Shown one piece after another: positions 5,448 through 19,298 of a stretch of 25,748 nt of DNA. This stretch comes from a virus. Position 1 is the stretch's first letter, and every line of letters begins with the position of its first letter. Location of the stretch: positions 1 through 25,748 of IMG/VR virus record IMGVR_UViG_3300020123_000065. One strand, 5' to 3'. A program made the position numbers and the translations under genes. The notes beneath the pieces were generated by a model. That model searched no databases and was not told the origin of the DNA. It saw nothing but the letters and a program-made list of their open reading frames with translations.

Positions 5448-5669
5448 ATGGCTGAGCACAAGGCAGGCAACACGGTCGTCCTGCTCGGCACCATCGTGAC
5501 GATCGCGGGTGACGTCGCCGTGGTGAAACTGGACAGGGCATTCCCCCCGGGCAGCGAGATCACCGTGCTACTCGGCGAGCTACCCGATGACGACCCGTCC
5601 GATGAGGACCGGATCCGCGACGCCATGGCCGAAGCGCAAGACCACCCCGGCCGCACCATCACCCGCTGA
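5448..5669 (+). CDS. small beta-barrel-like hypothetical protein
   Basis: The product is 73 aa, MAEHKAGNTVVLLGTIVTIA onward, from ATG 5448, two bases after the previous stop. The first 45 residues alternate in beta style (NTVVLLGTIVTIAGDVAVVKL, SEITVLLGEL), suggesting a small SH3- or OB-like barrel. The tail is acidic and helical (DDDPSDEDRIRDAMAEAQ), then HPGRTITR. The codons for this last motif recur 205 nt downstream after the next gene (5848-5868), pointing to a past duplication here. Function unknown. Confidence 0.6.
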   Translation: MAEHKAGNTVVLLGTIVTIAGDVAVVKLDRAFPPGSEITVLLGELPDDDPSDEDRIRDAMAEAQDHPGRTITR

Positions 5670-12612: not shown

Positions 12613-13230
12613 ATGGCCGCGCTGCAGGAATTCCTCGACGAGATGGCGAGGATCAAGAACGAGCTCCAGCGGATGGAAAACGACCTGGAGACCACCGACG
12701 AGCAGGACGGCGACCTGCGGGACACCCTCCTCGCCAGGTGGGAGGAGCTCGACCTGAAGTCCAAGCCGCTGATCGAGCGGATGGAGAAAATCCGGGAAAT
12801 CACCCGGCAGGCCGAGGACCCCGCCAACCTGGAGCCGCCGCCGGGCTACGCCTCCAGCCCCCCCGCCCGCAGGGGCCCCGAGCTGGTCGTCCGCAGCCAG
12901 CACGACCCGTGGGACGCCATGGACAAGGTGTCCGACAACATGATCAGCCGCGGCGAGCTCCGCGACCGGGCGCTGGACGCTATCGAGGTCGTCGCCAGGC
13001 GCGGGATGATCCAGCACGACTGGGCCGAGGAAGCCACCCAGAAAGTCCAGCACGGCGGGTACTACAAGGACAACAACATCGCCCGCCACATCCTCGAGAC
13101 CGGGTCGCAGGAGTACTACGACGCGTTCGAGAAGTACCTCCGGGACCCGGACCACATGTCCACCGCGACCCGTGCCGCGCTGAACCTGGGCGTGGCATCT
13201 GGCGGATACCTCCTCCCCTTCGTGCTCGAT
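12613..13230 (+). CDS. major capsid protein, exon 1
   Basis: This is the 5' exon (206 codons) of the HK97-fold major capsid gene. ATG 12613 has a good AAAGGAG site at about 12600-12606. Residues 1-85 are the coiled-coil delta/scaffold domain (LQEFLDEMARIKNELQRMEN...), normally removed by the prohead protease. The capsid fold then begins, ending in the family hallmark ASGGYLLPFVLD. Read without splicing, the frame goes on for only four codons (CQVA) and stops at TGA 13243-13245, in the middle of the capsid domain. Joined to 13529-14335 it gives an unbroken LLPFVLDPTIVLTNNASANP, exactly what relatives show. The spliced protein would be 474 aa. Splicing itself is inferred. Confidence 0.9.
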
Positions 13231-13528
13231 TGCCAGGTCGCCTGATCCCGTAAGGGGCCAGTGAAAACCGCGAGAATTGCTGGGACGTCCTGCCAGACGG
13301 CCGCACCACAGCGTGACGCGAAAGCGTGAGCGCGACGGTCTGAGAAGCGGCCGGTAGGGATAATCAGCAGCCGAGCCCGCCTGGAACCGCAAGGTTCCGA
13401 CGGGAAGGTTCAGAGACTATGTACGTGGCACCCCACGCGGGTGAAGATATAGTCCGGCCTGCATGGAGACATGCAGAGGCTGGCAGAGATGACCAGCCCC
13501 GCGCCCTCGGGCGTGAGTAACAAATGCG
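13231..13528 (+). ncRNA. group I self-splicing intron inside the capsid gene
   Basis: About 298 nt that remove the capsid frame and carry the group I core. P1 is exon CGAT (13227-13230) paired with GTCG (13237-13240), with a U-G pair at the 5' splice site. P2 is CCC-GTAA-GGG (about 13247-13256). P4 is TTGCTG (13277-13282) with CAGCAG (13365-13370). P5 periphery includes ACGC-GAAA-GCGT (13316-13327). P6 is CCCG/CGGG, with GGAACC-GCAA-GGTTCC (13383-13398). P7 is GACTAT (13415-13420) with ATAGTC (13449-13454). P8 is CGTGG/CCACG (13424-13437). P9 is CTGCATG-GAGA-CATGCAG (13459-13476) and later stems. The conserved strings AATCAGCAGCCGAGCC, TTCAGAGACTA and AAGATATAGTCC are the classical Q, R and S elements. 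The intron ends in the expected G (13528). No homing nuclease is encoded. Confidence 0.93.
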
Positions 13529-14335
13529 CCAACCATCGTGCTCACGAACAACGCCAGTGCGAACCCGTACCGGCGGATTTCCAACGTCAAGACCACGACG
13601 AGTAATACGTGGAACGGAGTAACCTCTGCGGGTGTCACGGCGGCGTGGCTCGCTGAAGGAACGGCGTCCGGCGACCAGTCCCCGACGGTCGGGAACATCG
13701 TGATTACGCCGCTGAAAGCCGCGGCGTGGATCTTCGGCTCGTTCGAAGTTCTGAGCGATACAGATTTCGGGCAGCAATTGCCGCGCCTTCTGGCGGACGC
13801 CAAGGACAGGCTAGAAGAAGCCGCCTTCGCAACCGGCACGGGCACGGCTCAGCCCACGGGCGTCGTGGTCGGTGCGACCACGACCACGGCCACGATCACG
13901 ACCGGCGCGTACGTCCTCGGCGACGTGTACGCCATCCACGCCGCGCTCCCGCCGCGGTTCCGCAACTCCCCGAACTGCGCCTGGGTCGCGAACGTCGCCC
14001 AGATCAACCGCACCAGGGCCCTCGACACCGCGGGCGGCTCCTCGTTCTGGACCAACCTGGGGAAGGACAGCCCGGAACAGCTGATGGGCAAGCCCATCTA
14101 CGAGTCCAGCTCGATCGACCCGGTGCTGACGACCACGCACAAGCCGATGGTGTTCGGGGACTTCTCGAACTACTACATCGTCGACAGGGTGGGCGTGTCG
14201 ATCATCTACGAGCCCATGGTCACCGGCACGGGTGCCAGCGCGAACCAGCCGACCGGTCAGAGCGGCTGGTTCATGTACTGGAGGGTCGGCGCGAACGTGT
14301 CGACCCCGGCGGCGTTCAGGGTCCTGCTGACCTGA
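13529..14335 (+). CDS. major capsid protein, exon 2
   Basis: The 3' exon is 268 codons plus stop. It starts at CCA 13529 (PTIVLTNNASANPYRR) and carries most of the HK97 capsid fold: TTSNTWNGVTSAGVTAAWLA, the E-loop region and the spine helix DFGQQLPRLLADAKDRLEEA. The P and A domains follow (NCAWVANVAQINRTRALDTA, LMGKPIYESSSIDPV), then the end strand VSTPAAFRVLLT. Read alone, the first usable start would be GTG 13538, with no ribosome-binding site and with the N-terminal third of the protein missing, so it makes sense only after splicing to exon 1. Subunits assemble the icosahedral shell. A strong hairpin begins 15 nt after the stop. Confidence 0.9.
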   Translation, partial: PTIVLTNNASANPYRRISNVKTTTSNTWNGVTSAGVTAAWLAEGTASGDQSPTVGNIVITPLKAAAWIFGSFEVLSDTDFGQQLPRLLADAKDRLEEAAFATGTGTAQPTGVVVGATTTTATITTGAYVLGDVYAIHAALPPRFRNSPNCAWVANVAQINRTRALDTAGGSSFWTNLGKDSPEQLMGKPIYESSSIDPVLTTTHKPMVFGDFSNYYIVDRVGVSIIYEPMVTGTGASANQPTGQSGWFMYWRVGANVSTPAAFRVLLT

Positions 14336-14349
14336 TCACTCCAGGACGT

Positions 14350-14392
14350 GAAGTGCGGGCCGCCCGTGCCCTGTGCGGGCGGGCCGCACTTC
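14350..14392 (+). terminator. long hairpin after the capsid gene (terminator/attenuator)
   Basis: GAAGTGCGGGCCGCCCG (14350-14366) pairs with CGGGCGGGCCGCACTTC (14376-14392) over 17 positions with one mismatch, around a 9-nt loop. It starts 15 nt after the capsid stop and ends 6 nt before the ribosome-binding site of the next gene. No T tract follows. Partial termination here would let capsid message greatly exceed downstream message, or the stem may protect the mRNA 3' end. Confidence 0.75.
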
Positions 14393-14414
14393 GCCAGGAA
14401 AGGAGGCGGTTCCG

Positions 14415-14627
14415 ATCGCTGCTCGCTACGCAACCCAGTCGTTCTGGTGGTGGAACACGGTCACGGGCACCGCCGAGTTCGTTGGCCTGGGGTTCCTGCG
14501 GGACAGCACGACGCAGGCTGTGGTGCAGCGGCCGGAGATGTTCACCACGGTGCCGCTGGACGTCCCGGCGCTGTCGCCGGCGCGGAACGAGTACCTGAAG
14601 CTGCATCCGGGCGGCCCCGGCACGTGA
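14415..14627 (+). CDS. small hypothetical structural-region protein, unusual start
   Basis: The product is about 70 aa, reading AARYATQSFWWWNTVTGTAE... after the start. A very strong AAAGGAGG site (14399-14406) is followed 8 nt later by ATC at 14415, in the right frame. No ATG, GTG or TTG lies at a usable distance. The only upstream in-frame start, GTG 14373, is inside the loop of the terminator hairpin and before the ribosome-binding site. An AUC start is therefore the most economical reading, though rare. The protein is beta-rich (EFVGLGFLRDSTTQAVVQ) with an FWWW cluster and might be a head or capsid accessory protein; I recognise no family. Its stop overlaps the next GTG. Confidence 0.5.
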   Translation: MAARYATQSFWWWNTVTGTAEFVGLGFLRDSTTQAVVQRPEMFTTVPLDVPALSPARNEYLKLHPGGPGT

Positions 14628-15637
14628 AGATATTCGGCCTGCCGGTGGGTGCGGACGGGTGCGGCTACTACCGCTGCTACCAGCCGCTGGCCGAGCTCCG
14701 CCGCCGCGGCCACAACGTGATGCTCCCGGAGCGGGGCATGGTGTGGCTGCCCGACGCGGAGCTGAACGCGGGCGACATCGACGTGTTCGCCGGGCAGCTG
14801 CTGACCGGGCCGCGGGGGATGGAGCTGTGGGAGTCGTGGGCGGGCAAGACCCGCCTGGTGTACGACATCGACGACGACGTGTTCAGCTCCGACCACGAGG
14901 GGTCGCTGTGGCACCGGCTGCCGGAGTGCCGGGACATCGCCGCCTACCTGCTAGCCATCTCCGACCTGGTAACCGTCTCGGTTGAGCCGCTGGTGGACGT
15001 GGCGAAGCGGTACAACCCGAATGTGGTGGTCCTGCCGAACTGCGTGCACGAGGACCTGCTGGCCCTGGAGCGTCCGGCCCGGGAGCGGGTGACGGTCGGC
15101 TGGTCGGGCGGCACGAGCCACCTGCGGGACTTCCGGTATGCCGCGCCGATGCTGAGCAGGTTCCTGGTCAGGAACCCGCAGGTTGATTTCCATTTCGTCG
15201 GCGCGGATTACTCGCTGATCGAGGAGTGGAAGGCGCCGCCGGGCCGGTCGCGTCACACCCCGTGGACGCCGGATCTGTGGGATTTCTACGCCGGCGTCGA
15301 CTTCGATATCGGGGTGGCGCCGCTGGATCGGGGTGCGGCGTTCAACTGGTGCAAGTCGCCTCTGCGGGCGCTGGAGTACGCGGCGCGGGGGATCCCGGTG
15401 GTGGCGTCTGACTGCGAGGCGTACCGGGGTTTCGTGGAGCACGGGGTGACGGGGTTCCTGGTCCGGTATGACCACGAGTGGTCCCGGTACCTGCGCGACC
15501 TGGTGAACGATGAGGGCATGCGGGCGGAGATGGGCGCGGCGGCGAGGCGGCTGGCGCGGGAGTGGACTATCCAGAAGCGGTACACCGCCTGGCAGGCCGC
15601 GTACGAAGGAGTGATGGATCGTGTGGCTGTCCCGTGA
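14624..15637 (+). CDS. GT4-type (GT-B fold) glycosyltransferase
   Basis: The product is 337 aa, from GTG 14624 overlapping the previous stop. It would transfer a sugar from an NDP-sugar to an acceptor in the cytoplasm. Features are the N-terminal Rossmann strand KIFGLPVGADGCGYYRCYQP, the acidic YDIDDDVF (80-87), the second-domain start VTVGWSGGTSHLRDF (about 156-170), and the donor-binding block KSPLRALEYAARGIPVVASD with Glu251, ending HGVTGFLV. This E-x7-E-like 'LEYAARGIPVVAS' block is the signature of GT4 and related families. Length is normal, if slightly short. It is followed by small genes, then an aminotransferase, an acetyltransferase and a GT2 enzyme, so it probably belongs to a virion- or host-glycan modification set. 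The acceptor is unknown. Confidence 0.9.
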   Translation: MKIFGLPVGADGCGYYRCYQPLAELRRRGHNVMLPERGMVWLPDAELNAGDIDVFAGQLLTGPRGMELWESWAGKTRLVYDIDDDVFSSDHEGSLWHRLPECRDIAAYLLAISDLVTVSVEPLVDVAKRYNPNVVVLPNCVHEDLLALERPARERVTVGWSGGTSHLRDFRYAAPMLSRFLVRNPQVDFHFVGADYSLIEEWKAPPGRSRHTPWTPDLWDFYAGVDFDIGVAPLDRGAAFNWCKSPLRALEYAARGIPVVASDCEAYRGFVEHGVTGFLVRYDHEWSRYLRDLVNDEGMRAEMGAAARRLAREWTIQKRYTAWQAAYEGVMDRVAVP

Positions 15638-16358: not shown

Positions 16359-16632
16359 CTTGCAGGATGGCCGCCAGCTCGCATAGGTGCGAGGTCAGGA
16401 CGTCGCGGCTGACGTGATGGTCGGGGAGGTTCCCGGTCCGCGCGGCCCACGCCTGGACGTTGTCGTAGGTCTCGGGCGGCATCCAGCCCTGCCGGTAGAG
16501 GTCGTGCTGGATGCGGTCGACGACCAGCAGGGCTGTGCGGATACGGTCAGCTTCGGTCTCGATGCCGTACGCGGAATCTTCCAGCTCATCGGCTATCGCG
16601 GCGGCCAGGGCTTTCTTGTCCTCTTCGGTCAC
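16288..16632 (-). CDS. reverse-strand helical hypothetical protein (moron-like)
   Basis: The product is 114 aa, MTEEDKKALAAAIADELEDS onward, starting at GTG (complement of 16630-16632). The first 90 residues form well-behaved amphipathic helices (DRIRTALLVVDRIQHDLYRQ, TYDNVQAWAARTG, LTSHLCELAAILQAT). The last 22 are a Pro/Ser/Gly tail lying within the overlap with the forward gene. The gene is isolated on the reverse strand between forward late genes, as morons are. The start lies 22 bp from the divergent aminotransferase start, so any promoters must be compact. No family is recognised. Confidence 0.65.
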   Translation of the reverse strand: MTEEDKKALAAAIADELEDSAYGIETEADRIRTALLVVDRIQHDLYRQGWMPPETYDNVQAWAARTGNLPDHHVSRDVLTSHLCELAAILQATAPGGGTTGPSASHRPPTGTPG

Positions 16633-16654
16633 TCACTCAAGATACGGGAGACGC

Positions 16655-17794
16655 ATGGCGCTGCACCCGGCCCCGGTGCCGCTGTTCCGGGTGCACATGC
16701 CCCCGGCCGGCGAGCTGATGCCCGCGCTCGAGCAGACCCTGTACTCCGGGTACATCGGGCAGGGGCCGCAGGCCGCCGAGTTCGAGCGGCAGATGGCAGG
16801 GTTCCTGGGACACGCGAACGTGCTGGCAGTCAATTCGTGCACGTCGGCGATCCAGCTGGCTCTCCGCCTGGCTGACGTCAAGATGGGCGAGGTCATCACG
16901 ACGCCGGTGACGTGCGCCGCGACCGCCCTGCCGGTCCTGGCTGAGGGCGCGCGGCCGGCCTGGGCCGACATCGACCCGGCCACGGGGAACATCGACCCGG
17001 CCGATGCCGAGCGGAAGATCACCAGGGATACGCGGGCGATCCTGGCGGTGCACTGGGGCGGGCAGCCGTGCGACATGGACGCCCTGAACGCGATCAGCGC
17101 TCGCCATGAGATCCCCCTCATCGTCGACGCCGCGCACGCGCTCGGCGCGTCGTGGGACGGCTGGCCGGCCGCGGCGGACTACACGTGCTACTCATTCCAG
17201 GCGATCAAGCACCTGACCACCGGAGACGGCGGCCTGCTGGCCACGGCGACCGGGCAGGACGCCGAGCGCGGCCGGCTGCTGCGCTGGTACGGCATCGACC
17301 GGCTCGCCGGCGGCGAGGACGCCCGGACCGGCGCCGACATCACCAGCCCCGGCCTGAAATGGCACATGAACGACATCGCCGCGACGATCGGCCTGGCCCA
17401 GCTGCGCCATCTCCCGTCAGTGCTGGCCCGGCACCGGGACAACGCGGCCTATTACCATTCCCGGTTCGCCGGCCGCGTCCGGGTCGCGGCGAGCCTGCCG
17501 AAGGCGCGGGGCGCGTGGTGGCTGTACACGCTGATCTGGGCTGACGAGGCGCAGCGGGTGGCGTTCATGCGGTACGCGGAAGAACACGGCGTGGCCGCCT
17601 CGCGGGTGCACGCCCGGCTGGACAGGCTCACCTGCTTCAAGGAGTTCCCGGCCGGGCCGCTGCCGGGCGCGGACGAGTTCTATTCCCGCATGTGCTGCAT
17701 CCCGGTCCACTGGGCGCTGACGGAGGAAGACCGCCGCCGGGTGGCCGACGTGGTGATCAGCTTCTGCGAGCGCAAGGCGCGAGCGTCGCCTTGA
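16655..17794 (+). CDS. DegT/DnrJ/EryC1/StrS-family PLP aminotransferase
   Basis: The product is 379 aa, from ATG 16655 with GGGAG 5 nt upstream. Family members use PLP to convert an NDP-4-keto (or 3-keto) sugar to the amino sugar, with Glu or Gln as donor. Typical features are GYIGQGPQAAEFER (the start region), NSCTSAIQLAL (phosphate binding), VITTPVTCAATALPVLAEGA, Asp158 in IVDAAHALG (contacts the PLP nitrogen) and the PLP lysine Lys185 in YSFQAIKHLTTGDGG. The last part (LKWHMNDIAATIGLAQL) is also typical. Length is normal. With the GNAT and two glycosyltransferases nearby it probably supplies an amino sugar for virion or host-surface modification. No sugar nucleotidyltransferase or dehydratase is present, so the keto-sugar donor would come from the host or from outside the window. 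Confidence 0.92.
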   Translation: MALHPAPVPLFRVHMPPAGELMPALEQTLYSGYIGQGPQAAEFERQMAGFLGHANVLAVNSCTSAIQLALRLADVKMGEVITTPVTCAATALPVLAEGARPAWADIDPATGNIDPADAERKITRDTRAILAVHWGGQPCDMDALNAISARHEIPLIVDAAHALGASWDGWPAAADYTCYSFQAIKHLTTGDGGLLATATGQDAERGRLLRWYGIDRLAGGEDARTGADITSPGLKWHMNDIAATIGLAQLRHLPSVLARHRDNAAYYHSRFAGRVRVAASLPKARGAWWLYTLIWADEAQRVAFMRYAEEHGVAASRVHARLDRLTCFKEFPAGPLPGADEFYSRMCCIPVHWALTEEDRRRVADVVISFCERKARASP

Positions 17795-18165: not shown

Positions 18166-18639
18166 ATGCAGCTCTCGTTCGAGGCCATCGATAGCCCGGA
18201 GGCAGCCGAGATCCTCCGCGTCCTGCGCAACCAGTGCGCCGCGTCGATGACCAGGGATACCAGCCAGATCACCCCGGCCGCCCAGCGGGAGTTCTACCGG
18301 GCCAGGATCGTGACGGGGAAGGTCGAGGGGTTCCTCGTGCACGCCGGGGGGGAGCCGGTGGCGTACGGGCTGATTGTCTGGGACGAGGAGGGCCGCGCCT
18401 GGTCGTCCACGGGCGTCGCGGCGGCCCGCCGCGGGGAAGGGCTCGGCCGGATCATCACCATCGAGAACGTGAAGCGCGCCCACGCCCACGGCGTCCCGAT
18501 GTGGGCGGAGGTCCGCCGGGACAACGCGGCCCAGCAGAAAATCTGCCTCTCCATCGGCTACCGCCTGGTGCACGCGTTCACCAGGGACGGCGTGGCCGTC
18601 GACGTGATGCGCTGCGACGCGCTGCCGGAGCATGCGTGA
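18166..18639 (+). CDS. GNAT-family N-acetyltransferase
   Basis: The product is 157 aa, from ATG 18166 with a GGGAGAGG site about 8 nt upstream. The GNAT fold is visible: strand EGFLVHAGGEPVAYGLIVWD, strand AWSSTGVAAA, then the acetyl-CoA pyrophosphate loop RGEGLG (89-94) with helix RIITIENVKRAHAHG, strand MWAEVRRDN and the last motif AAQQKICLSIGYRLVHAF. It would move an acetyl (or other acyl) group from CoA to an amine. Next to a DegT aminotransferase, the natural substrate is the amino group of the new amino sugar, as in bacterial pairs that make N-acetylated amino-deoxy sugars. Other GNAT substrates cannot be excluded. Its stop overlaps the GT2 start. Confidence 0.88.
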   Translation: MQLSFEAIDSPEAAEILRVLRNQCAASMTRDTSQITPAAQREFYRARIVTGKVEGFLVHAGGEPVAYGLIVWDEEGRAWSSTGVAAARRGEGLGRIITIENVKRAHAHGVPMWAEVRRDNAAQQKICLSIGYRLVHAFTRDGVAVDVMRCDALPEHA

Positions 18640-19298
18640 TCTCCGTCGTCACCCCCGCCTACCGGGACTGGCCGGCCCTGCAGCGGGCCATCGCGTCGCT
18701 GGAGGCGCAGACCTGGCAGGACTGGCAGCATGTGGTGGTCGCGGACGGCCCCGACCCGGGGCTGCGCGAGGCGCTGCACGCCCTGGGCTACGCCGGGCAC
18801 GGGAAACGGGTGCTCGCCGAGCTCGGCCGGAACTGGCACGGGTTCCTCGGCGGCGACGACGCCGGGCAGCCCCCCGGGCGTCCCGGCGGACGCGGCGGCC
18901 GGGGTTCCCGGGGCGTGTCCACCGCGCTGGCCGGGACCTACCTCGCCGCCGGGGACCTGATCGGCTACCTGGACCAGGACTGCGAGTACCTGCCCGGCCA
19001 CCTGCAGGCGTGCGCGAAGGCGCTGGACGCCTCCGGCGCGGACTTCGCCTACACGCAGATGGAGCGGTGGTTCGGCGCGCAGCGGTGGGACGTGGTCGGC
19101 GACGGCACCCCCGCGCACGGGCAGATCGACGGGAACATGGTGGTGCACCGGGCCGGCCTGCTGCGGCAGGCGAACTGGCGGTGGGGCGGCGACGCGGACT
19201 GGGACCTGATCAGCCGGTGGGTCAACGCCGGGGCCCGGTGGGAGTTCGTGCCGGGGGTGACCGTGCGGTGGCATCACGACCCGGCGGACATGATGTGA
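18636..19298 (+). CDS. GT2-family glycosyltransferase
   Basis: The product is 220 aa, starting at GTG 18636 and overlapping the GNAT stop by 4 nt, so coupled to it. The GT-A fold is clear: ISVVTPAYRDWPALQRAIAS, WQHVVVADGPDPGL (Asp37, nucleotide binding), RGVSTALAGTYLAAGDLIGY and the metal-binding DQD at 113-115 (LDQDCEYLPGHL), then DGNMVVHRAGLLRQANWRWG and a final GGDADWDLISRW, where Asp residues often serve as base. Between strands there is a Gly/Arg/Pro-rich stretch (AGQPPGRPGGRGGRGSRG, 76-93) that is unusual for the family and may be a flexible loop or an insertion. Length is short but complete. It would transfer the sugar made by the neighbouring enzymes; the acceptor is unknown. Confidence 0.9.
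   Translation: MISVVTPAYRDWPALQRAIASLEAQTWQDWQHVVVADGPDPGLREALHALGYAGHGKRVLAELGRNWHGFLGGDDAGQPPGRPGGRGGRGSRGVSTALAGTYLAAGDLIGYLDQDCEYLPGHLQACAKALDASGADFAYTQMERWFGAQRWDVVGDGTPAHGQIDGNMVVHRAGLLRQANWRWGGDADWDLISRWVNAGARWEFVPGVTVRWHHDPADMM

Follow-up and report, generated by a model that had tools for sequence, protein, structure and literature searches.

Truncated capsid subunits should be dominant-negative, and the accumulation of introns in capsid genes is hence puzzling. How a phage might bear them is the question raised by the window analyzed here, the 25,748 nucleotides of IMG/VR virus record IMGVR_UViG_3300020123_000065, a metagenomic virus contig in which the head genes follow the order terminase, portal, prohead protease, and capsid, and in which the major capsid gene is interrupted.

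Major capsid gene split by a group I intron

The first capsid exon (positions 12613 to 13230, plus strand; 206 aa), delimited from the ORF, the joined protein, and homologues, encodes a scaffold-like N-terminal domain and the start of the capsid domain. Its frame is open from 12613 up to a TGA at 13243-13245 and restarts in frame at 13529, as originally predicted; the second exon (13529 to 14335, plus strand) runs from PTIVLTNN to the stop codon and matches the Pfam family Phage_capsid (PF05065) at 6.7e-37, and the joined exons give a protein of 474 aa. The 298 nt between them (13231 to 13528, plus strand) are essentially certain to be a group I intron. The covariance search proposed in the original prediction, with the Rfam group I model (RF00028, Intron_gpI), matches the whole model over 13217-13476 with 62.1 bits (gathering score, 50; E 9.6e-14). 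The 298 nt are absent from the IMG/VR relatives L002 and L012, in which LLPFVLD-PTIVLTNN is continuous, and this places the splice junction at 13230/13529; we checked these intron-free relatives for flanks that fail to join at that point, and in both the join is exact and in frame. Another 5' site (after U13231, with guide GAUC) would add a serine that is absent from the empty-site homologues, and was rejected on this ground. The region 13231-13528 contains no coding ORF and so no intron-encoded nuclease, and the prediction of an ORF-less intron with exact boundaries holds.

We examined the RNA fold in an alignment of 24 sequences, consisting of the window intron and 23 relatives picked by a core pattern, with P7 added by hand. 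Across helices P2 to P9.2, including the P3/P7 pseudoknotted core, P4-P6, and P8-P9, 97.6% of alignment cells are paired, compared with 33-39% in a control with slid pairing partners, and two-sided changes occur in 51 of the 82 base pairs. In P1 (13227-13240, plus strand, as for all helices here), exon CGAU (13227-13230) pairs with the internal guide GUCG (13237-13240), with the predicted U13230-G13237 wobble at the 5' splice site; the guide tracks the exon across family sites, such that 49 of 57 introns have a 4-bp P1, against 6.7 expected with random guides. The P2 hairpin (13242-13261; CUGAUCCC/GGGGCCAG with a GUAA loop) covaries in relatives and has a single A-C mismatch (13245, 13258). 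This falls on the third position of the in-frame stop codon, TGA, where a G would remake the base pair but abolish the stop. The remaining helices, all covarying, are P3, pairing CCGCG (13268-13272) with CGUGG (13424-13428) (helix 2); P4, pairing 13277-13283 with 13364-13370 around an extended P5 domain (helices 3-7); P7, pairing GACUAU (13415-13420) with AUAGUC (13449-13454), with P8 (CACCC/GGGUG) between (helices 9 and 10); and P9 (13459-13476, with a GAGA loop), P9.1 (13478-13498), and P9.2 (13501-13514) (helices 11-13). P6 has a GCAA loop and the last intron base is G13528, so that the core elements named in the original prediction are all present, although its description of the intron as minimal does not fit with the extended P5 or with P9.1 and P9.2. 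The structure, the empty sites, and experimentally spliced homologues (see below) suggest that the intron leaves the mRNA by RNA self-splicing.

Acquisition and distribution of capsid gene introns

Comparison of L012 (4374-5586) with the window (12613-13230 and 13529 onward) reveals a local loss of similarity at the insertion site. The two are 100% identical in the 400 nt upstream of the capsid gene and 98.6% identical across the first 580 nt of exon 1, but identity is only 77% over the 60 nt that surround the insertion site; past the site, it is ∼90% for about 180 nt and then returns to 93-100%. This co-conversion-like dip is the pattern expected from homing or recombination, and suggests that the capsid gene acquired the intron recently.

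The capsid gene of these environmental phages is an intron hotspot. In relatives, the number of introns in this gene varies from none to three, over some eight sites, with positions at aa ∼200, 206, 273-280, 385, 428, and 454, and many copies are intron-free. L125, L078, L146, and L222 each have two or three such introns, all from one group I family, in a single capsid gene, with as many as three in L125 and L078. Searching 80 capsid relatives directly with Rfam recovered just seven introns, and homology gaps and core patterns proved more effective; because many family introns score below threshold, RF00028 alone provides a poor census. The L215 intron (at a PVKLAA site) seemingly contains an HNH/zinc-finger-like reading frame located 3' of P7.

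Neither the intron type nor its location is new. The Cluster J mycobacteriophages have group I introns in the capsid gene of LittleE and in the minor tail gene of BAKA and Optimus, with splicing proven by RT-PCR, and lactococcal phage Tuc2009 is cited in the same study among phages with capsid or tail group I introns (PMC3706429). The introns of BAKA and LittleE are members of the family studied here, with 72-76% identity over about 200 nt to the intron of L004; as here, the Cluster J introns are in structural genes, and that of LittleE is at the equivalent GG|Y capsid site, but it carries a nuclease gene, which the window intron lacks. The original prediction's view of the capsid location as unusual is therefore not sustained, and as a group I intron in a capsid gene the window copy is an ordinary new member. 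We also note that genes for glycosyltransferases (GT1 and GT2), a DegT/DnrJ-type aminotransferase, and a GNAT acetyltransferase lie between the head and tail genes of the window (14348-15634, 16511-17791, 18166-18636, and 18234-19295), suggesting modification of virion or host glycans; LittleE likewise has a glycosyltransferase gene directly 3' of its capsid gene.

Readthrough tails resembling ssrA tags

What is unexpected is at the 5' end of the introns, where translation reading from exon 1 into family introns reaches a stop within a few codons and the residues ahead of that stop often look like degrons. We gathered introns using patterns in the 3' half or core, never the 5' end, so as to avoid picking by tail, and called the exon frame solely from upstream coding signal, yielding 63 non-redundant introns. 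The readthrough products end in -[AV]A for 43 of these, compared with 69 of 1551 (4.4%) other long ORF ends from the same contigs; -[LVAM]AA endings are present in 34 of the 63 and in 22 of the 1551, and ALAA in 8 and 3, respectively. Binomial p-values for such contrasts are only rough guides because introns at one site are related, and we used site-level and within-gene comparisons as well.

Endings include QFELAA, ELALAA, KEKVAA, and VTVAAA, and LAA is the consensus C-terminus of ssrA tags (PMC7246954). The resemblance can be longer: tails YENWALAA and STENWALAA are similar to the E. coli tmRNA tag ANDENYALAA, and RRDFALAA, LRRDTFALAA, and FSAKRQDSFALAA are similar to the mycobacterial ssrA tag AADSNQRDYALAA (PMC6889138), for which the M. 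tuberculosis form is given as AADSHQRDYALAA (PMC4416901). These comparisons are with E. coli and mycobacterial tags, and the hosts of most of these phages may differ. The experimentally spliced BAKA and LittleE introns have readthrough tails of LSDDLAAAAA and SVATAAA, and the Cluster J tails thus also end in -AAA; the account of these introns in PMC3706429 does not mention ssrA, Clp, or tags. Some late introns are untagged, with endings VLCG, AAFN, and KMAS. A pattern scan of genome contigs gave five matches, none with a tagged intron, and five non-actinophage introns (from Klebsiella phage DP, phiKZ, Bas96, Staphylococcus phage BE22, and Vibrio phage 1.232.O) end in TYG, HIPK, QKA, GVV, and WLH, and have no tag.

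In the window itself, the readthrough tail (13231-13245, plus strand) is C-Q-V-A followed by TGA, in frame with exon 1 and with the stop in the 5' strand of P2. Only its last residues, -VA, agree with an -LAA-type motif, and at this insertion site seven family introns end in -VA with a variable third-last residue (Q, P, L, A, A, Q, and K). At the level of the family the case for a degron is strong, but this short tail and the variability ahead of -VA make it moderate for the window copy; CQVA is a weak example, and we regard the chances that it acts as a degron as about evenly balanced.

Are the tails a by-product of RNA structure?

The commonest register (register I) has its stop in the opening triplet of P2, and its last codons combine the guide (GCC or GUC) with the junction CC; a UG ahead of the guide can base-pair with CA where the intron begins. 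The RNA therefore accounts in part for -AA or -VA. However, several features argue for a role of the tail at the protein level. Of the 31 introns whose P2 starts with a stop triplet, 30 have that stop in the exon frame, and in the lone out-of-frame case (L128) a VAAVAA-stop is already present inside the P1 loop; the tail there, VQVAAVAA-stop (near 5540-5562, plus strand), lies wholly in the P1 loop, ahead of the guide sequence. Insertions occur in phases 0, 1, and 2, and in each the tail is kept in frame via loop length, with P1 loops of 6, 9, 12, 15, 18, 24, and 33 for phase 0, of 7 and 10 for phase 2, and, in another register, of 9 and 12 for phase 1. The same ending is also reached through several RNA registers, from the start of P2, from the P1 loop only, or inside the P2 stem, and further registers have a stop in the P2 tetraloop with LAA from the P2 stem, or poly-Ala through P2. 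In the P2-encoded register (register II), the Ala codon may be GCA, GCC, GCG, or GCT, with its P2 partner changing alongside and the coding strand otherwise constant.

Position in the gene is similarly informative. In one capsid gene, MCP2, for which L253 is the reference, introns located at aa 34-69 would leave a short peptide on failed splicing; these are tagged in only 3 of 18 instances and mostly have immediate stops, whereas those at aa ≥137 are tagged in 10 of 10 (Fisher p 2e-5, ignoring relatedness; 0.0016 when counted by site with MCP1 added). Tagged and untagged introns occur together within one capsid gene in L146 and L222. Relatives without the aa-307 intron have HALAWYAIWG at the site, and native C-termini such as AETN.

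Alternative explanations

The most serious alternative is that selection acts only for an early in-frame stop that shields the ribozyme core, with -AA and -VA arising as by-products of the guide and GC-rich codons. In-frame stops in group I introns are indeed already known and have been read as an aid to splicing (PMC3984707), untagged stops occur in the introns of other phages, the register I ending is composed of guide and junction bases, and only -VA is kept at the insertion site used in the window. We nonetheless consider this explanation rather unlikely, as it does not account for the early introns, which have untagged immediate stops even though several share GGCCGCC, while late introns in that gene and in those genomes are tagged; nor for tags in registers in which they are not guide-encoded, or for tails of 8-13 residues whose likeness to real ssrA tags extends far past the last two residues.

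The original prediction instead proposed that splicing could control the level or timing of capsid production. Capsid genes are in general late and strongly expressed, and some phage introns do splice in a translation-dependent manner (PMC11878797), but we think such control very improbable for the window intron, given that the near-identical L012 is intron-free and that the co-conversion-like flanks identify the window copy as newly arrived, which speaks against a regulatory role that is already established. Intron sites and numbers also shift within the same gene, from none to three among relatives, and splicing of the capsid intron in LittleE is presumed to be very efficient (PMC3706429). 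That the 298 nt are a non-splicing insertion or an assembly artefact, leaving a broken capsid gene, is scarcely credible in view of the complete covarying group I fold, its exact in-frame removal, the many relatives, and the presence of the identical capsid gene and intron allele (100% identity) in a second contig, L003. Overall, the original prediction identified the intron and its boundaries correctly, its unusual location and control of capsid expression are not borne out, and the in-frame degron-like 5' tail was overlooked.

A proposed role in clearing capsid fragments

We favor the explanation that the introns encode ssrA-like degrons, which probably serve to destroy the capsid fragments translated from unspliced RNA. 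A group I intron would enter the capsid gene and subsequently self-splice from its mRNA, but ribosomes crossing the 5' splice site prior to splicing would halt after a few intron codons; termination after the tail on unspliced RNA is what the sequence itself predicts. The in-frame stop at or near P2 would shield the ribozyme core from ribosomes, and the codons ahead of this stop would add to the truncated protein a C-terminus of the ssrA type (-LAA, -VAA, or -AVA, with YENWALAA, RRDFALAA, and FSAKRQDSFALAA as the best examples), which, by its resemblance to known tags, may be recognized by ClpXP-type proteases that take the assembly-poisoning fragment. HK97-type capsid fragments with the N-terminal assembly domain should poison procapsids, and their clearance would be the benefit. 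It also seems quite likely that the tag is present where the truncated capsid or tail product is long enough to poison assembly and is dropped where the product is a short peptide.

The proposed system has parallels and differences with those described previously. The group I introns of T4, SPO1, Twort, and the Bastillevirinae also have early in-frame stops, interpreted as preventing ribosomes from disturbing intron folding (PMC3984707), but are mostly in DNA-metabolism genes. Like the proposed intron tag, tmRNA (ssrA) puts an -ALAA C-terminus on incomplete proteins, although it acts in trans on stalled ribosomes, whereas the intron would supply its tag in cis, with an ordinary stop codon after it. 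A literature search for intron-encoded degrons found no report among freely readable papers.

If correct, this would represent a new link in bacteria between RNA splicing and protein quality control, in which an intron reduces its own cost by marking splicing failures for proteolysis. It would also explain how as many as three introns per gene, at about eight sites, have accumulated in the most highly expressed structural gene. The tail rule offers a simple sequence guide for finding such introns, and the mycobacteriophages LittleE and BAKA provide a tractable system in which the degron proposal may be pursued.
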